From: Arthrobacter caoxuetaonis
Lineage (GTDB): Bacteria; Actinomycetota; Actinomycetes; Actinomycetales; Micrococcaceae
Assembly (NCBI RefSeq): GCF_023921125.1
Contig: NZ_CP099466.1
Coordinates: 124,001 to 188,000, forward strand
Direction: 5' to 3'
DNA: 64,000 bases
The translations under genes and the position numbers were made by a program. Positions 29,508 through 56,988 of the stretch are shown here, one piece after another (the stretch's first letter is position 1; every line of letters begins with the position of its first letter). Below the pieces are notes generated by a model, which ran no database searches, was not told where the DNA came from, and worked only from the letters and a program-made list of their open reading frames with translations.

Positions 29508-31093
29508 AACCGGCGCACGGCGACGGCGCCCAGGAGGCACCGTTCAACGGGCGGCTTGCACTGCTGCTGGCCATGGCAATGTTCGTGCTCGTGGTCGACA
29601 CCTCAATCATGAACGTCTCCATCTCGGCGGTGGTGCACGACGTCGGCGCCACGGTCAGCGGGCTGCAGTCGACCATCGCCCTTGAAGCGCTGGTGTCTGC
29701 TGCCTTCATCCTGATCGGCGGCAAGATCGGCGACCTGTTCGGGCGCAAGCGGGCCTACCTCATTGGACTGGTCTGCTACGCGGTCGGAGCCGTGGCGATG
29801 ACCCTGGCCCAGAGCCTGCTGCCGATCATTATCTTCTGGGCCGTGATCGGCGGACTGGGGGCGTCGCTGCTGCTGCCCTCCATTCAGTCCCTCATCCACG
29901 GCAACTTCGAGGGAGCCGCGCAGCAGCGGGTCTACGCCCTGGTTGGCGCCTCGGCGGCGATCGCCGCAGCGGTCGGGCCGCTGCTGGGCGGCTTCATCAC
30001 CACGTTCCTGTCCTGGCGTGTGGCCTTCCTGCTCGAAGCCCTCGTCATCGCCGTCGTGCTGGCCGGCATCAAGCTCGTTCACGATGTTCCCTATGAGGGG
30101 CCGCGGACCCTGGATGCCGTTGGATCGCTGCTGTCCATCCTGGGGATGGGCGGTATCGTGCTGGGCATCCTCGTCTGGCAGGAGGGCGGTGAAGCGGTAG
30201 GGGCGCTGCTGGCCGCCGGCGTCGTCGGGCTGGGCTCGCTCGTCTACTGGCTGGTCCGGCGCAAGCGGCGGGGCAGGCCCACCCTGCTGGACCCCGGCCT
30301 TTTCCGGTCGAAAGGCTTCCGGTTTGGCGCCACCGGGCAAATGCAGCAGCAGATTGCCCTGGGCGGCACCATGATTGTGCTGCCCATCTATCTGCAGATG
30401 GTGCTCGGCTACAACGCCATGGAATCGGGGCTGTCCATTGCCCCGCTCTCACTGACCATGTTCGCCGTCGCACTGCTTGCTGGAAAACGGGCGGCGAAGC
30501 GGCGCCCTGCCAGCCTGATCAGATGGGGTTTCCTCCTCCTGGTTGCCGGACTCGTGCTGCTCCTTCCGGTGATACCGCGTGCGGACTCCGGGTGGTGGCT
30601 CCTTCTCCCGCTGCTCATCGCCGGAGCCGGGCTGGGGCTGCTGGTCTCCCAGCTGAACAACTACACCCTGTCTCCGATCTCCGACGAACGGGTCAGCGAG
30701 GCGGCCAGCGTGAACTCCGCCGCCGGTTCCTTTGGCCTGTCCTTCGGGCTCGCGTTTGCCGGCGGCATCATGCTGGCGGCTCTGTCCATCATCTTCACCG
30801 GCCTGGCGGAGTCCAGCACGGTACTCCCGGCCGCTGAACAGCAGCAGGTGGCCCGGGTGCTCGAAGACGACGCGCAGCTCCTCAATGACACCCAGCTCCA
30901 GGAGCTCCTCACCGGCCAGCCGGAGCAGATCCGGGAGGAAATCCTCCGTATCAACACGGAGGCCAGGCCCCTTGCCCTGCAGATCGCGCTGTCCATCCCG
31001 ATACTCGCCGGCACCCTGGGTCTGCTTACGTCTTTCCGGATGCAGCGGCTCCGGGACCCCGGGCCCAAAGGCGGCGGAACCGTCCAGGACTGA
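29504..31093 (+). CDS. MFS drug exporter, DHA2 (14-helix) family
   Basis: The protein has 529 residues. It starts in the first helix region after ~18 residues (LALLLAMAMFVLVVDTSIMNVSI, with the DHA2 motif D1). Motif A is GGKIGDLFGRKRAYLIGL, and motif C-like GASAAIAAAVGPLLGGFI follows; about 14 helices are visible. A longer extracellular or cytosolic segment at ~435-490 is acidic and Gln-rich (AAEQQQVARVLEDDAQLLN). It should export toxic compounds by proton antiport. Its start overlaps an 18-codon leader ORF with the good ribosome site, so translation is probably coupled. Drug specificity unknown. Confidence 0.92.
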   Translation: MKPAHGDGAQEAPFNGRLALLLAMAMFVLVVDTSIMNVSISAVVHDVGATVSGLQSTIALEALVSAAFILIGGKIGDLFGRKRAYLIGLVCYAVGAVAMTLAQSLLPIIIFWAVIGGLGASLLLPSIQSLIHGNFEGAAQQRVYALVGASAAIAAAVGPLLGGFITTFLSWRVAFLLEALVIAVVLAGIKLVHDVPYEGPRTLDAVGSLLSILGMGGIVLGILVWQEGGEAVGALLAAGVVGLGSLVYWLVRRKRRGRPTLLDPGLFRSKGFRFGATGQMQQQIALGGTMIVLPIYLQMVLGYNAMESGLSIAPLSLTMFAVALLAGKRAAKRRPASLIRWGFLLLVAGLVLLLPVIPRADSGWWLLLPLLIAGAGLGLLVSQLNNYTLSPISDERVSEAASVNSAAGSFGLSFGLAFAGGIMLAALSIIFTGLAESSTVLPAAEQQQVARVLEDDAQLLNDTQLQELLTGQPEQIREEILRINTEARPLALQIALSIPILAGTLGLLTSFRMQRLRDPGPKGGGTVQD

Positions 31094-31189
31094 GGAAAGC
31101 GGTCCGCTGCGGGGGAGTATCCGGCGGAGCCCTTTCCTTCGCGTGCCGTCCCCGGTTCACTGGTAGGTCCGATCAATTGGAGGACAAAG

Positions 31190-31633
31190 ATGTTTCCAAG
31201 CACCGAAAGATACGAATGGGATTCCGTGGGCCCGCCCGAAAACCTGGAACTCAGCGAAGCCGAGTGCTGGTCACTGCTCGCGGGAGCGGACACCGGACGT
31301 GTGGCGTTCCTGCAGGACGGCCGGCTGATGGTTTTCCCGGTGAGCTACCTTGTGCATGACCAGTGCGTGTATTTCCGCACCAGTGCCGACAGCGGACTGG
31401 CTCTGCTTCCGGGGGACCTGAACACATCTTTCCAAACCGATTCGCACGACGTCGGCCGTATGGAGGGCTGGTCGGTGCTGGTGAGCGGGCCGGCCAACCG
31501 CGTGCAGGACGAAACGCTGCTCACGACTTTGTGGGGGCTCCGTGCGCAGGCACCCTACGGCGGAGGCGCGCGCAACATGTTCGTTGGCATTGAGCCGTCC
31601 GTGCTGACCGGCCGCCGGGTGCGGATGGGCTGA
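31190..31633 (+). CDS. Pyridoxamine-5'-phosphate-oxidase-fold protein
   Basis: The protein has 147 residues. LELSEAECWSLLAGADTGRVAFLQDGRLMVFPVSYLVHDQCVYFRTS is the classical start of the PNPOx-like split-barrel flavin/F420-binding family; GWSVLVSGPANRV and the C-terminal V.gieP..ltGRRV pattern (VGIEPSVLTGRRVRMG) complete it. Members bind FMN, F420 or haem and reduce or degrade small molecules; the substrate is unknown. TTGGAGGACAAAG upstream supplies the ribosome site. Confidence 0.9.
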   Translation: MFPSTERYEWDSVGPPENLELSEAECWSLLAGADTGRVAFLQDGRLMVFPVSYLVHDQCVYFRTSADSGLALLPGDLNTSFQTDSHDVGRMEGWSVLVSGPANRVQDETLLTTLWGLRAQAPYGGGARNMFVGIEPSVLTGRRVRMG

Positions 31634-34197: not shown

Positions 34198-35043
34198 GCG
34201 GGCGAGCTGGCGGATGGGAATCCAGCGGCCGGCCAGCCGGCGGTAGGCTGCAGCGGCACCTGTCATGTCGCCGTCGGCCAGTGATTCGATGCCCAGCCGC
34301 ACATCGGACGGTGAATCGTCCGGATAGACCAGCTCGGCAACGGGCCCGTAATCCAGCTCCAGAACGGCATCCGGCGAAAAGACTTCCAGCCAGGTGACCA
34401 GGTCCGTCAGCTCATCCAGCAGGTCCAGTTCGGGTGCTGCCAGCGCCAGGGCGGCCGCAGCGTGCCGTGCCCGGTCAATGCACTGCGGGATCGGCGCGGA
34501 CATCCGCACCGTGAGCACCCTGCCGTCGTCCTCCACGACATCGGTTGCGTCGTCCTCGTGGATCAAAATGAACCAGCCGAACGGCACTCCCCAGGTCGCT
34601 GAGCGGGTGTGCAGCTTGGCCAGCGAATCAGCGAACGAGTCGGGGTCGATACGCGCGGCGTGGGCTTCCCGGGCCACTTCGGGCAGCAGGACATCCACCA
34701 GGGGACCGTTGACCGTCTCGCCCAGGGACTCCGCAGCCAGCGAGGTCCGCACGGCCAGCTGGTTGGGGCAGTACAGGCGCGTGGTGCTGCCGTCCGGCCG
34801 CGGATGGTGCAGCACCCGCACCAGGTCACCGGAGGTGTGGGGAAAAGGATCCGACACCGGGCGGACGAGCCGGCGTACGGCGTCGCTGCGCTCCAGGACT
34901 TCGGTCTCATGCCTGGCGCGGGAACGCTGGTCAAGGATGCGCAGCTGCTGGGCGTCGTCGAACGCATCCAACGGTTCGTAGACGCGCAGATAGGACACGT
35001 ACGGGAAGGTACGCCACACGGTAGCCTCCGGCGCCCCTGCCAT
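34189..35043 (-). CDS. Conserved-looking hypothetical protein
   Basis: The protein has 284 residues, soluble, acidic and Leu/Ala-rich. The N-terminus (TVWRTFPYVSYLRVYEPLDAFDDAQQLRIL) looks well folded, and DDGRVLTVRMSAPIPQCIDRARHAAAALALAAPELDLLDEL is a striking central block. Its ATG lies 2 bases after the xthA stop, so the two are co-transcribed. I do not recognise the family or see catalytic motifs. The link with xthA hints at a DNA-repair or housekeeping context but nothing more. Confidence 0.7.
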   Translation of the reverse strand: MAGAPEATVWRTFPYVSYLRVYEPLDAFDDAQQLRILDQRSRARHETEVLERSDAVRRLVRPVSDPFPHTSGDLVRVLHHPRPDGSTTRLYCPNQLAVRTSLAAESLGETVNGPLVDVLLPEVAREAHAARIDPDSFADSLAKLHTRSATWGVPFGWFILIHEDDATDVVEDDGRVLTVRMSAPIPQCIDRARHAAAALALAAPELDLLDELTDLVTWLEVFSPDAVLELDYGPVAELVYPDDSPSDVRLGIESLADGDMTGAAAAYRRLAGRWIPIRQLARAS

Positions 35044-35045
35044 CG

Positions 35046-35849
35046 CTAGTCCAGTTCCACGATCACGGGTGCATGGTCGGAAGCGCCTTTGCCCTTGCGT
35101 TCCTCGCGGTCGATGCTGGCGCCCGTGACCCGGGCCGCCAGCGCGGGGGAGCCCAGCACGAAGTCGATGCGCATGCCTTCCTTCTTCGGGAAGCGCAGCT
35201 GGGTGTAATCCCAGTAGGTGTAGACGCCGGGACCCTCGGTGTACGGGCGGGCCAGGTCGTGGAAGCCGGCATCCAGGAACGACTGGAAGGCAGCACGTTC
35301 CGGTTCGGTCACGTGCGTGGCGTTCTGGGCGCGGAACCAGTCAATGTCCCAGACGTCCTCATCCCGCGGAGCGATGTTCCAATCGCCCATCAGCGCCAGG
35401 TTCAGCTCCGGATCGTCCTTGATCCATGAGGCAGCCTGGTCCTTGAGGATCTTCAGCCATTCCAGCTTGTAGGGCATGTGCGGATCGCCGACAGCGCGGC
35501 CGTTGGGAACATACAGGCTCCAGACCCGCACTCCGCCGCACGTGGCGCCAATGGCCCGGGCTTCGGCCACAGTGGTTTCTTCGGTCTTGCCGAAGTGCGG
35601 CTGGCCCGGGAAGGTCCGCTCGACGTCCTCGAGTCCCACCCGGGAAGCGATGGCGACGCCGTTCCACTGGTTCAGGCCGAAATGGGCCACTTCGTAGCCG
35701 TTGAACTCGAAGACCTCCCACGGGAAGTTCTCATCCTTCGCCTTCGTCTCCTGGATGGCCAGGACATCGACGTCGGAGCGCTGCAGCCAGGCTTCAACGC
35801 GGTCGGCACGGGCGCGGATGGAGTTCACGTTCCAGGTAGCAATCTTCAC
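35046..35849 (-). CDS. xthA: Exodeoxyribonuclease III
   Basis: The protein has 267 residues. IATWNVNSIRARADRV, AIQETKAKDENFP (metal Glu), NGVAIASRVG, LALMGDWNIAP, GMRIDFVLGSPALA and GASDHAPVIVELD are the ExoIII/AP endonuclease motifs in order. It cuts at abasic sites and degrades 3' ends during base-excision repair. I use GTG 35849, the family-like start; a TTG at 35867 would add six residues. No good ribosome site is visible for either, so the start is uncertain. Confidence 0.93.
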   Translation of the reverse strand: MKIATWNVNSIRARADRVEAWLQRSDVDVLAIQETKAKDENFPWEVFEFNGYEVAHFGLNQWNGVAIASRVGLEDVERTFPGQPHFGKTEETTVAEARAIGATCGGVRVWSLYVPNGRAVGDPHMPYKLEWLKILKDQAASWIKDDPELNLALMGDWNIAPRDEDVWDIDWFRAQNATHVTEPERAAFQSFLDAGFHDLARPYTEGPGVYTYWDYTQLRFPKKEGMRIDFVLGSPALAARVTGASIDREERKGKGASDHAPVIVELD

Positions 35850-35980
35850 CCTTGCTACGTTACCCAATCAGGGCAAGGGGGTCCTACGGGAGTGCATGTG
35901 TCGTTTACCCCTTGTGGGTGGTGCTGGTAGGTGCTTCGTGCGGCACCCGGGTGCCGCCCGGGCGCCGCCCGGCGGGCGGA

Positions 35981-36056
35981 CCGGAACGGCGGCAACGAAA
36001 TTCCTGTGCTCGCAGGGCTCTCAAGGAATATTAAAGCCGCCTAACCCGGCCCGTCC
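35981..36056 (+). repeat. Structured inverted repeat, left copy
   Basis: About 76 bp that match, reverse-complemented, 38791-38865 with a few changes. The outer stem is GGCGGC (35988-35993) with GCCGCC (36036-36041), the inner stem ATTCCT (36000-36005) with AGGAAT (36024-36029). It lies upstream of xthA; the other copy lies beyond scoB, so the pair brackets the IclR/CoA-transferase segment. Confidence 0.85.
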
Positions 36057-36193
36057 GCCGGACTGCTTGGGTGCGTGACGGGCCAAGTGGGTGCCCACTT
36101 GTGGAAACCCGAACGGTCCGCCGGAGGGGTCGGTCGGCGATTGGTCCGCTAGCTGTAGGTTGCATGCCGGGTGGCAGTCATCCTCTGGTTGCG

Positions 36194-36338
36194 CATCCTT
36201 TGGGGAGATAACGCTGGATGGGGAGGGGTCCGCAAAACCATTGGGGAGATAACGTCCCTTAGGGGGCCGAATAAGAGCGTTATCTCCCCAAAGGATGACG
36301 GAGGACCCCTCTAAAGAGCGTTATCTCCCCAATGGATG
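36194..36338. repeat. Symmetrical four-copy array with core GGGGAGATAACG
   Basis: Core copies on the plus strand are at 36202-36213 and 36243-36254, and inverted copies at 36278-36289 and 36319-36330. Each pair is exactly 41 bp apart and the whole array is symmetric about 36266. Copy 1 with flanks (36194-36215) is a perfect 22-bp inverted match to copy 3 (36276-36297); 36238-36254 is a perfect 17-bp inverted match to 36319-36335. GAGGGGTCC (36223-36231) also has its inverse at 36303-36311. Confidence 0.92.
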
Positions 36339-36360
36339 ACCGGCTTGCGCCAAGGCATCG

Positions 36361-36400
36361 CCCGGGTGGCCCGACCCCCCCCCGGGTGGCCCGACCCCCC
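36361..36400. repeat. 20-bp tandem duplication
   Basis: CCCGGGTGGCCCGACCCCCC occurs twice without a gap (36361-36380, 36381-36400), making a C9 run at the junction (36375-36383). Lies just after the stop of the IclR gene. Confidence 0.95.
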
Positions 36401-36416
36401 CGGTTGTCTCGGCATC

Positions 36417-37202
36417 TCAGGGAGCGCCGTGGGAACGGAGCTGCGTGGTGAGAGCGTGGGCGTGCTTCAGGAGGAGGCGGCCGAGTTCGGGGCGGCGCTG
36501 CTCGGTGAAGCGTGAGCCGATCCCGGTGAGGCTCAGGGCCCAGGCTGGCTGGCCTGCACGATCGAAAACCGCGGCACCCATGCCCCAGCTTCCTGTGACG
36601 ATGAGTTCCGGGTTCACTGCGTAGCCGGCGGCACGGGTTTCGGCGATCCTGTCCCTCAGTGCTTCACTGTCGTGGGCCGGGCCGAACTCCCGGGAGAGAT
36701 CGGCAGTGGACAGGTAGCGTTCCACGGCGTCTTCCCGTAGGAACGCCAGGATCGCAAGCCCGGCCGACGCAACACCGAGGGGAAAGCGCTTGCCCTCGAA
36801 CAGCACGAACGAGCGGATTGGAAACGCGCCGTCCTCGCGCAGCAGGCAAACAGTCTCGTCACCGCGGCGCACCGAGAAAAAGGCGCTCTCCCCGGTCGCT
36901 TCAGCCAGTGCCTTCACATGTTCACGGGCGACGCCGGTGACGTCGTAGCGCTCGGCTGCCACAGACCCCATCAGGTACAGTTCCGGACCCAGAAGCCAGC
37001 GGCCGGCTGAATGGTCGTGATCCAGGAAGCCCTCCTCGGCGAGGGACGCCAGGAGCCGGTGGACGGTCGGCCGCGGCAGGGAGGTGGAGCGGGCGACGTC
37101 GCTGGTACTGATCCCGTGCGGCATGGCCGCACTCACCGTGCGCAGCACCTCGGAAAGGCGCCGGACGACCTGTGCGCCCTGGATGCCGTTTGTCTTGTCC
37201 AT
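36417..37202 (-). CDS. IclR-family transcriptional regulator
   Basis: The protein has 261 residues. The N-terminal winged helix (~10-75) has RRLSEVLRTVSAAMPHGISTSDVARSTSLPRPTVHRLLASLAEEGFL. The C-terminal effector domain has FSVRRGDETVCLLREDG, RSFVLFEGKRFPLGVASAGLAILAFL and AVFDRAGQPAWALSLTGIGSRF. It should repress or activate the divergent CoA-transferase genes in response to an acid or its CoA ester (inference from position and family). ATG 37202 is chosen for the GGAAGGTG upstream; ATG 37235 is less likely. Both genes share the 143-bp control region. Confidence 0.93.
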   Translation of the reverse strand: MDKTNGIQGAQVVRRLSEVLRTVSAAMPHGISTSDVARSTSLPRPTVHRLLASLAEEGFLDHDHSAGRWLLGPELYLMGSVAAERYDVTGVAREHVKALAEATGESAFFSVRRGDETVCLLREDGAFPIRSFVLFEGKRFPLGVASAGLAILAFLREDAVERYLSTADLSREFGPAHDSEALRDRIAETRAAGYAVNPELIVTGSWGMGAAVFDRAGQPAWALSLTGIGSRFTEQRRPELGRLLLKHAHALTTQLRSHGAP

Positions 37203-37267
37203 ATTATGAACACCTTCCCCGGTGGTGGTCACCATCTGAGCACTTTCGCTCCCCAGACACTAATCCA

Positions 37268-37321
37268 TTGACCTTGATTTCCACGTCAGGCTAGCGTCCA
37301 AGGATCCACGGTCAGTGGTCC
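37268..37321 (+). promoter_or_regulatory. Promoter and candidate IclR operator of the CoA-transferase operon
   Basis: TTGACC (37268-37273) and TAGCGT (37292-37297) are 18 bp apart. An imperfect inverted repeat GGATCCAC/GTGGTCC (37302-37309, 37315-37321) covers the predicted start of transcription, a position typical for a repressor site. Confidence 0.55.
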
Positions 37322-37345
37322 ACATTATGGTCGAAAGGATGTCCT

Positions 37346-38053
37346 ATGGGGTCGAAAGTGTATGAGAGCACGGCGGAGGCCCTGGGCGGCACCGTCCGTG
37401 ACGGTATGACGATCGCCGTCGGCGGGTTCGGTTTGAGCGGCATCCCCGGCAACCTCATCGCGGCGCTGCGGGACAGCGGGGCTACCGGGTTGACCATCGT
37501 TTCCAACAACATGGGTGTGGACGGCAAGGGGCTCGGCCTGCTCCTGGAAAACCGGCAGGTCCGAAAGGTCCTGGGGTCCTACGTGGGGGAGAACAAGCTC
37601 TTCGCGGAGCAGTACCTTTCCGGCGATCTGGAGGTGGAGTTTGTTCCGCAGGGCACCCTTGCGGAGCGGCTGCGTGCCGGTGGGGCCGGCATTCCGGCGT
37701 TTTACACTCCTACCGGAGTCGGCACGCCGGTGGCTGAGGGCAAGCCCGAAATGGAGTTCGACGGCAGACGGGCAATTCTGGAGCGCGGGATCGTGGCGGA
37801 CTTGGCCTTGGTCCGTGCGCACCGGGCGGATCCAGAGGGGAATCTCCGGTACCGGATGACGGCGCAGAACTTTAATCCGCTGGTGGCTGCTGCCGGACGC
37901 GTCACCATAGCCGAGGCGGAAGAAATCAGCCGGGACTATCTTGAGCCCGACCGGATCCACACACCTGGCATCTACGTGCAGCGTGTAGTGGCCGTGGAGG
38001 ATACCCATAAGCACATCGAGCAGCGGACCGTCCGGGTCCGGGTGGAGGCCTAG
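37346..38053 (+). CDS. scoA: 3-oxoacid CoA-transferase, subunit A
   Basis: The protein has 235 residues, the usual size of the A subunit. MTIAVGGFGLSGIPGNLIAALRDSG is the family-I CoA-transferase signature; YVGENKLFAEQYLSGDLEVEFVPQGTLAERLRAGGAGIPAFYTPTGVGT follows. With subunit B it moves CoA from succinyl-CoA to an acid such as acetoacetate or 3-oxoadipate; which acid is not decidable here. AAAGGATG precedes the ATG. Seven-base gap to subunit B. Regulated most likely by the divergent IclR gene. Confidence 0.92.
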   Translation: MGSKVYESTAEALGGTVRDGMTIAVGGFGLSGIPGNLIAALRDSGATGLTIVSNNMGVDGKGLGLLLENRQVRKVLGSYVGENKLFAEQYLSGDLEVEFVPQGTLAERLRAGGAGIPAFYTPTGVGTPVAEGKPEMEFDGRRAILERGIVADLALVRAHRADPEGNLRYRMTAQNFNPLVAAAGRVTIAEAEEISRDYLEPDRIHTPGIYVQRVVAVEDTHKHIEQRTVRVRVEA

Positions 38054-38059
38054 AACATC

Positions 38060-38710
38060 ATGTGGACACGGGACGAAATGGCGGCCATCGCCGCAGCAGA
38101 ACTGCAGGACGGGCAGTACGTCAATCTCGGCATCGGCATTCCCACCCTCGTGGCGAACCACTTGCCGTCCGGCGTCAGCGTTTTCCTGCAAAGCGAGAAC
38201 GGGCTGCTCGGCATGGGCCCCTTCCCCTATGAGGGTGAGGAGGACGCCGACCTGATCAACGCAGGAAAGCAGACCGTCACGGTGCTCCCTGGCGGCAGCT
38301 TCTTCGACTCGGCGACGTCTTTCGGAATGATCCGCGGCGGGCATGTGCAAACGGCTATCCTCGGAGCGCTGCAGGTTTCCGCCGCCGGAGACCTGGCGAA
38401 CTGGACCATTCCCGGCAAGCTCGTCAAGGGAATGGGCGGCGCCATGGACCTGGTCGCCGGCACCCCTCGGGTCATCGTCATCACTGACCATCTGGCCAAG
38501 GACGGGTCCTCCAAGATCGTCCCGGAGTGCGACCTCCCGCTGACCGGCGTCGGCGTCGTGGACCGCATCATCACCGACCGCGCCGTCTTCGACGTCGAGG
38601 ACGGCACCCTGATCCTCCGCCGCCTCGCGCCCGGCCTGGAAGTGTCCGACGTCGAAGCCATCACTGCGGCCACTTTCACCACCCAGTTGGACTCCCTCAG
38701 CCCGGCCTAG
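38060..38710 (+). CDS. scoB: 3-oxoacid CoA-transferase, subunit B
   Basis: The protein has 216 residues. [19 protein letters not shown] and [41 protein letters not shown] are the subunit-B motifs; the Glu in SENG is the residue that forms the CoA thioester. [24 protein letters not shown] follows. Forms the active A2B2 enzyme with the upstream product. Downstream comes a repeat copy (38791-38865), and the convergent nadE. Confidence 0.93.
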
Positions 38711-56113: not shown

Positions 56114-56871
56114 ACGGGATGTCCAGCAACCCCGGCGACGAAGAAGCAATCCGGCGCCTCTTGGATGAATCAGGTGTCGAAGCAACACCGGAGCTCACAG
56201 ACGCGCTCCGGAAGCTGCGCACCGAGTCCCGCGGCGAGGCGCCGGCGCCGTGCGCCGAACTGGAGGCCCTCTTCACGGCAGGAGTCACCCCTCTTCGCAA
56301 GTCCCGGCGCCGTGGTTTCCTCCTGGGCGGAGCGGTCATTGCGGCCATGGCTGCCGGCACTACCGGCGTCGCTGCGAACGGCGACTTTTGGGTGACTGCC
56401 GAAAACTCGCACGAGTTGCCCGCGCCCGTGCACTACGAGCAGATCCCGGCCCCGGCGCCGGCTCCGGAGACCCCGGCGCCAACCGATCTTCCGGATTCCT
56501 CCGCCGATCCTGCACCTGCTGCCGAAACCATCCCGGACCCGGAGGCGGTTCCGTCCGCCGAAGCCGAAGCCGAAGCCGAAGCCGATCCGTCCGTGCCGTC
56601 CGCGCCGGCCGCGCCGGCCGCGCCTACGGATGGCGCTGCGGAAGGCCCTTCGGAAGATTCTCCGGAACGTGCTCCCGAACGTTCAGAGCAGCGGAGCGGC
56701 CGGGACTGGAACCAGGGGAACCGGGGCAACGGTTCAGAGAATGGCCAAAGGCAATCCGGCTGGGAGCATGAAAAGCGTTCCGGTACGTCGAAAGACGGGT
56801 ACGGCAAGGACCACGGTGAGCGCGGCAAGAGCCAGGAAAACCGGGCTAGGAGCGGCCGGGATGATGACTGA
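56110..56871 (+). CDS. Putative anti-sigma factor with one helix and low-complexity tail
   Basis: The protein has 253 residues. A helical cytosolic part (1-68), one membrane helix (~70-92, FLLGGAVIAAMAAGTTGVAA) and a long outer part follow. The outer part is Pro/Ala/Glu-rich (~100-190, with EAEAEAEAD), then Arg/Gly/Asn/Ser/Asp-rich to the C-terminus. No HxxxCxxC zinc motif is present, so it is not a ZAS-type anti-sigma. The assignment rests on topology and the 4-base overlap with the ECF gene. The tail might interact with envelope polymers (speculation). Confidence 0.65.
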   Translation: MNGMSSNPGDEEAIRRLLDESGVEATPELTDALRKLRTESRGEAPAPCAELEALFTAGVTPLRKSRRRGFLLGGAVIAAMAAGTTGVAANGDFWVTAENSHELPAPVHYEQIPAPAPAPETPAPTDLPDSSADPAPAAETIPDPEAVPSAEAEAEAEADPSVPSAPAAPAAPTDGAAEGPSEDSPERAPERSEQRSGRDWNQGNRGNGSENGQRQSGWEHEKRSGTSKDGYGKDHGERGKSQENRARSGRDDD

Positions 56872-56910
56872 CCGGGCCGCGGACTTCGGCTAACCCCGTC
56901 CTTTTTCACA

Positions 56911-56966
56911 CGAGAGGCCAGTTACGGCTCGTTTCAGACGTGAAACGAGCCGTAACTGGCCTCTCG
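56911..56966. terminator. Perfect 26-bp hairpin, likely bidirectional terminator or palindromic repeat
   Basis: Arms 56911-56936 and 56941-56966 are perfectly complementary over 26 bases, with loop GACG; the right arm starts TGAAACGAGCCGTAACTGG. TTTTT precedes it (56902-56906) and GGTTTT follows. It lies between convergent genes, so termination is a sensible role. Length and perfection exceed what a terminator needs, so a mobile palindromic element is also possible. Confidence 0.85.
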
Positions 56967-56988
56967 GTGGTTTTGGCGGCGGAGAGGG

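Follow-up and report, generated by a model that had tools for sequence, protein, structure and literature searches.

Palindromic repeats in Arthrobacter and other Actinomycetales and their association with genes for AbiEi-like, nuclease-domain proteins

Dispersed extragenic palindromes in which two inverted, conserved half-sites form a hairpin are characteristic of the REPIN/RAYT system. The same repeat is found in the flanks of the partner gene, the repeats also form tandem clusters, and repeat and partner co-diverge. The repeats described here share all of these features. However, the REPIN partner, RAYT, is a Y1 HUH protein, while the candidate partner in the present case is AbiEi-like with a PD-(D/E)XK/Vsr-like domain. 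Unlike in REPIN/RAYT, no GTAG tag is seen, the spacing of the units is quantised in helical turns, and the order in which the repeats are found here is the Actinomycetales. With no such tag in evidence and a different kind of gene beside the repeat, membership in the REP/RAYT family is not established. CGTC-tagged REPs are palindromes as well, and they are described as lacking a known dedicated transposase (PMC3733652); here, the CGTC tag is not seen either, but a candidate partner gene is present. On the protein side, AbiEi of the type IV toxin-antitoxin system AbiE is described as a repressor of the wHTH type with inverted repeats as its binding sites (PMC3985639). The interpretation favored here, with a probability of roughly 0.6, is that the repeats constitute REPIN-like palindrome populations, each paired with a protein that combines an AbiEi-like region with a DUF559/MTES_1575 nuclease domain.

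The locus under study lies in Arthrobacter caoxuetaonis, in a stretch of 64,000 nucleotides, here called the window. Its features are as follows.

36194..36338, no strand: the whole four-unit array, intergenic between the 3' end of iclR and the 5' end of xthA
36195..36213, plus strand: unit L2 (ATCCTTTGGGGAGATAACG), the outer left site
36236..36254, plus strand: unit L1 (AACCATTGGGGAGATAACG), the left site of the inner pair, one 41-bp step from L2
36255..36277, no strand: the 23-bp centre that separates the head-to-head inner units
36278..36296, minus strand: unit R1, the inner right site
36319..36337, minus strand: unit R2, the right site of the outer pair, one 41-bp step from R1
35046..35867, minus strand: xthA, exodeoxyribonuclease III type (Exo_endo_phos, PF03372), a flanking gene outside the system
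36417..37235, minus strand: gene for an IclR-family regulator (PF01614, PF09339), a flanking gene outside the system

A first-pass annotation had described four exact copies of a 12-bp core (GGGGAGATAACG), two on the plus strand (36202-36213 and 36243-36254) and two on the minus strand (36278-36289 and 36319-36330), separated by 41-bp steps and symmetric about 36266, with conservation that extends into the flanks as a 22-bp perfect inverted match and a GAGGGGTCC/GGACCCCTC pair. All of these elements are present in the sequence. The unit is better defined, however, as a 19-bp segment, A[TA]CC[TA]TTGGGGAGATAACG in the window array, of which two copies are direct and two inverted. The centre is mostly 23 or 33 bp long in the family and variable in sequence. 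When two mismatches to the core are allowed, the window contains 9 matches vs. 4.6 expected, and 9 was reached by 7 of 100 shuffles. The signal of the array, therefore, resides in its four exact, evenly spaced copies. One symmetric pattern had 0 matches in viral contigs, which speaks against a viral origin to the extent that this pattern allows, and a search for plasmid relatives of the window copy of the array gave no match.

The location in front of xthA had raised the possibility of an operator for this gene. This candidate was rejected. The xthA locus was located in all 29 genomes of the genus, and about 4 kb around it was scanned with 14 unit matrices for two units within 130 bp; such a cluster was present in 0 of 28 relatives, whilst the window array yielded all four units at 30-32 bits. 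The xthA loci of eight relatives, when read by eye, did not contain an array, and six of the eight have a different repeat in common.

The suggestion that the array belongs to a repeat family proved correct. The exact core is present in 22 copies in its own genome (0 for the reversed control). These copies lie at nine loci, each of which also has other units, in part inexact. Within the genus, the exact core is found in 5 of the 29 genomes, the own genome included, and two slightly degenerate cores at a 41-bp step occur in Arthrobacter citreus, A. koreensis, A. gandavensis and Arthrobacter sp. Edens01. With a covariance model (R1) built from 15 elements, relatives, many of them with other cores, were detected in 24 of the 29 genus genomes (E ≤ 0.01), and matches were present in 18 of 149 genomes of the taxonomic family, from 10 of 32 genera. 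The same model, at E ≤ 0.05, indicates 16 places in the own genome, and 14 after removal of two (1383797 and 2657853) that are hairpins of the second family discussed below. Other cores in the family are TTCGTGCAGATAACG, TTGTACAGATAACG, TGAGCAGATAACG and TGTCGCAATAACG. Outside the genus, most of the members inspected consist of one hairpin of 60-80 bp, and the one at locus L111 has four units. The elements are mostly intergenic: in loci of 14 genomes, 128 of them were recovered, and 8 of 126 overlap an ORF as called, for the analyses of flanks and spacers, with a simple custom gene caller.

Different arrays may be found close together. At locus L033 (about 1278-1420), an array with a TGCTGCAATAACG-like core adjoins a GGGGAGATAACG pair, showing that two core types can neighbour each other, and a similar mix is seen at the maf gene in genome G000. 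On contig C8 of genome G023, arrays with the exact core are located at 31075-31244 and 38282-38369, i.e., 7 kb apart.

The spacing of the units was analysed in 14 genomes, in which the units were re-found with one weight matrix per genome and with, as the sole spacing rule, a neighbour 15-130 bp away. Of 297 direct spacings, 85 were 31 bp and 171 were 41 bp (256 exact), and 281 were within 1 bp of either value. Thus, the idea of helical phasing in the first-pass annotation, with 41 bp as about four turns, holds strongly. The head-to-head centre gaps (n = 158) were similarly restricted, with 80 at 23 bp and 52 at 33 bp (132 exact), and 15 gaps of 18 and 8 bp all came from G009, the unit of which is itself nearly palindromic. 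The model used to detect the loci derives from 41/23 elements, which may bias the result towards those two values, but not towards 31 and 33. The sequence of the spacer is poorly conserved: in 101 spacers from five genomes, the last 14 of the 22 columns show 26-43% identity between loci, and the first eight are partly conserved (34-78%). What is held is the length of a nearly random spacer, and the differences in length come in tens, one helical turn. Tandem duplication accounts for equal lengths within one array, but does not easily explain two values one turn apart at both kinds of junction. The seemingly close genomes G012 and G027 differ in how many 41- and 71-bp steps their maf arrays contain and in how these steps are ordered. 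The spacing pattern points to protein aligned along one face of double-stranded DNA.

The gene maf was found in all 29 genus genomes. In 27 of them, the gene that follows it, in convergent orientation, encodes a DUF559-like protein (phmmer). Arrays are located between these two genes in nearly all genus genomes, as determined mainly by reading the sequences; a permissive count of repeat pairs gave 28 of 29 at maf, with 16 of 56 control windows scoring as well. No DUF559-like gene was found at 28 xthA loci. Hence, the earlier statement that no protein-coding gene is associated is true of the window copy but not of the family, which has a DUF559/AbiEi-like gene at the 27 maf loci. The fetched array loci of 14 genomes contained at most one DUF559 match per genome, the other loci having none in the stretch read. 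The array at this home locus resembles the dispersed units of the same genome: in 9 of 14 genomes, the unit of the own genome was its best match (second in two, third in two and fifth in one), and the observed total (trace) was reached by 0 of 100,000 permutations. Shared ancestry could be part of this match. The home array of G004 has a clearly different core. Deviating maf loci are those of G002, which has a mismatched hairpin only, of G024, in which no DUF559 gene is found within 1.5 kb of maf, and of G013 (L244), in which the gene is represented by two short tblastn fragments in different frames and one hairpin is left. The genome of G013 has a single match to the R1 covariance model, which, together with the fragmented gene, may reflect a decaying system. 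Several genomes with an intact DUF559-like gene also show only 1-3 such matches.

The association of gene and repeat extends beyond the genus. Homologues of the DUF559-type gene (E ≤ 1e-10) were found in 101 of 149 genomes of the order, from 44 of 64 genera. A first set comprised 34 loci minus two that were too short (L284 and L290), i.e., 32 genes, and hairpins with a score ≥ 16 were present in 27 of the 64 gene flanks vs. 0 of 64 control windows. Loci L262-L266 had prompted the idea and are, therefore, not independent; without them, the number is 21 of 54 flanks. In a fresh set of 40 genes, flank hairpins were found in 31 of 80 flanks vs. 2 of 80 controls, and on both sides in 10 of the 40 genes. 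These genes were taken in listing order from the homologues to which no locus had been assigned, omitting three with an internal stop and three without (G062:C50, G217:C126 and G202:C29), and they include L297, a close relative of L262. Since the control windows of both tests are probably mostly coding, a control with intergenic regions from the same loci is relevant: although small (21 regions), it showed hairpins in 1 of 21 other regions vs. 37 of 110 adjacent ones (Fisher p 0.007). In intergenic regions of xthA loci, the frequency was 1 of 51. When all 72 genes from genus and order were considered, the upstream and downstream flanks of one gene had a repeat in common in 45 cases vs. 2 of 720 mismatched pairings, and 33 of the 72 lacked a flank hairpin at the threshold. 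The best match to the covariance model outside the genus, L111, also abuts a DUF559-type gene. In other families of the order, DUF559-type genes at L330, L335, L278 and L295 are bracketed by near-identical hairpins, with local match scores between the two sides of 51-85.

The candidate partner protein has 320 residues, and its structure model has a mean pLDDT of 94.3. Its N-terminal region is like AbiEi: PADLOC's AbiEi profile matches 25 of 33 members of the protein family. AbiEi binds a pair of inverted repeats with an overall size similar to that found here (PMC3985639). Unlike AbiEi, the protein carries a C-terminal nuclease-type domain, and its putative sites flank the gene on both sides and are dispersed over the genome. 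The C-terminal domain resembles the DUF559/Vsr and MTES_1575 REase families and contains the conserved D...ExDGxxH...R motif. Profiles of MTES_1575 REase and DUF559 match 20 and 17, respectively, of the 33 members; the query protein itself scores below the DUF559 cut-off and has no NCBIfam match. Residues S209, E212, R216, G259, H262 and R274 are invariant in all 33 members, whilst D245 is found in 32 and E256 in 29; D245, E256 and H262 are candidates for catalytic residues. One convincing relative is present in the PDB, i.e., 3hrl, an endonuclease-like protein (E 4.9e-5). Relatives are named in databases as DUF559 domain-containing, endonuclease domain-containing, very-short-patch-repair endonuclease or hypothetical proteins.

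Each of the five genomes searched contains two DUF559-type genes, the second one of G004 being a weak match (29%, E 3e-6). In G000, G007 and G023, the second gene, or paralogue 2, is flanked on both sides by hairpins with a sequence quite different from that of the main family. A single flank hairpin is present in G004, and none was found by score in G009, where direct repeats are visible. That the paralogue-2 hairpin of G000 would be dispersed had been set as a prediction, and this was borne out in its own genome. With ≤3 mismatches, its 19-bp half-site has 72 matches there (2 for the reversed control), 70 of which are arranged in 35 inverted pairs, i.e., hairpins. The hairpin measures 54 bp between the half-site ends, only slightly less than the inner pair of the array with its 61 bp. 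One of these hairpins is found in the window.

56910..56967, no strand: paralogue-2 hairpin with half-site GAGAGGCCAGTTACGGCTC, unrelated in sequence to the array, with a 26-bp stem

It occupies the gap between reading frames that end at 56871 (plus strand) and 56989 (minus strand). The paralogue-2 half-sites of other genomes were sought in the DNA that had been chosen for the main family. In this material, the half-site of G023 has five copies in G023, five in G005 and one in G025, a half-site common to G000 and G025 has six in G000, eight in G025, two in G017 and two in G023, and those of G007 and G009 have no copies.

Together, these observations suggest how such a system may work. The gene beside or between the home repeats encodes a protein in which an AbiEi-like region at the N-terminus is joined to a DUF559/MTES_1575 (Vsr-like, PD-(D/E)XK) domain, and this protein would bind each unit of ~19 bp in double-stranded DNA via the AbiEi-like region. 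Two head-to-head units would constitute the basic hairpin of about 54-71 bp, from which the element may grow outward as units are duplicated in tandem, 41 or 31 bp at a time. Cooperative contact between neighbouring proteins would occur only if their units face the same side of the helix. The nuclease domain may then make a nick or break, and copies would thereby spread to other intergenic sites and be homogenised within the genome. Against this reading stands that neither an empty site nor a target duplication was found. The reading of the unit by the AbiEi-like region and the line-up of proteins along one face are supported by the phasing and by precedent, while we infer that copying is started by the nuclease; the role of the partner is suggested by its association with the repeats. 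The first-pass annotation had proposed either a multi-protein binding array or a folded mobile element, which was in the right neighbourhood. A more far-reaching and tentative proposal is that a new class of repeat systems, either selfish or domesticated and widespread in the Actinomycetales, is at hand, in which a Vsr-like PD-(D/E)XK + AbiEi-type protein propagates its own palindromic sites; several lineages with private codes would coexist per genome, and their register would result from polymerisation of the protein.

Alternatively, the sites could be stationary, and the DUF559/AbiEi-like protein a regulator or an organiser of the chromosome that acts on phased operators or nucleoid sites. 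In that case, the positions should be inherited and the core should co-evolve with the protein. Many arrays indeed occupy the same intergenic place across species: the 253 flanking proteins include 47 clusters with members from more than one of the 14 genomes, and the maf cluster, with 10 genomes, is the most widely shared. Also the helical phasing and the repressor function of AbiEi referred to above would fit. However, among 118 elements that do not overlap an ORF and have a called gene on either side, 43 lie between convergent genes, 61 between genes with the same direction and 14 between divergent genes, which is unlike operators. Moreover, the window copy has no counterpart in 28 relatives, and the presence of 35 near-identical hairpins of the second family in one genome suggests copying or strong homogenisation. 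Stationary sites are, therefore, considered unlikely.

It is more doubtful still that these are ordinary REP/REPIN elements that are moved by an undetected RAYT (Y1 HUH) or another transposase, with the DUF559-type gene as a favoured neighbour only. Their inverted doublets, extragenic location and tandem clusters match the REPIN architecture as described (PMC3116915). Inspection by eye of the edges of arrays and of 32 paralogue-2 hairpins, though, revealed neither a GTAG or CGTC tag nor any other constant tag. Furthermore, the two flanks of the DUF559-type gene have a repeat in common in 45 of 72 cases, and such a hairpin, used as a query, revealed a dispersed family.

A function at the RNA level, as bidirectional terminators or hairpins at mRNA 3' ends, is very improbable. 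It would agree with the bias towards convergent genes and with the strong fold: the 145 bases, treated as single-stranded DNA, fold at -48 kcal/mol (z = -9.7), equalled by 0 of 200 shuffles. It would also agree with the compensatory changes in the paralogue-2 hairpins; in 32 aligned copies, 12 of 26 pairs have changed on both sides, in 41 cells vs. 17.3 in shuffles (0 of 500). In the four-unit arrays, 89.3% of the cells are paired between left and right arms vs. 87.0% in shuffles (0 of 500), 21 cells have changed on both sides vs. 11.5 (0 of 500), and the left arm has often diverged from the right one. As this pairing is barely above that in shuffles and the arms diverge, strand pairing carries no weight for these arrays. 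Rfam gave three sub-threshold matches on 35000-38000, none of them over the array. Spacing steps of 10 bp are a property of double-stranded DNA and not of terminators, and termination needs neither a conserved unit nor two-sided copies or multi-unit direct arrays.

Finally, several phased sites per end are found in Tn7- or Mu-like ends, and the elements resemble these, but that they are MITEs which belong to a DDE transposon with such ends is hardly credible. The exact-core places of the 29 genomes showed no recognisable autonomous element, with the two complete arrays 7 kb apart in G023 as possible ends. The units are inverted, and reading of the element edges by eye gave no consistent target-site duplication.

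To return to the palindrome populations paired with AbiEi-like nuclease-domain proteins, the literature searched (titles and abstract openings, with few subscription journals and no preprints) does not link DUF559, MTES_1575 or AbiEi-nuclease proteins to dispersed palindromes. If the pairing is correct, there would be a second kind of partner enzyme for REP-type dispersed palindromes, unrelated to the first, and the spread of bacterial palindromic repeats could be tested outside the RAYT system. Many unexplained actinobacterial proteins with DUF559 or endonuclease names would gain a concrete substrate. As the flanks of about half of the 72 genes contain a predicted binding site, specificity could be read over dozens of natural pairs. 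Among natural records of helical phasing, the quantisation of the spacing by 10 bp is unusually clean.

Two other repeats were noticed near the window array. Beside it, at 36361-36400, a GC-rich 20-bp unit (CCCGGGTGGCCCGACCCCCC) is exactly duplicated in tandem. Upstream of xthA, at 35968-36064, a separate palindromic repeat of ~90 bp folds into a long hairpin (z -4.4), for which Rfam gave only a sub-threshold match to RsmW (23.5 bits, cut-off 52). Among the matches listed, copies of the latter repeat with 79-94% identity are found on both strands in at least 28 of the 29 genus genomes.
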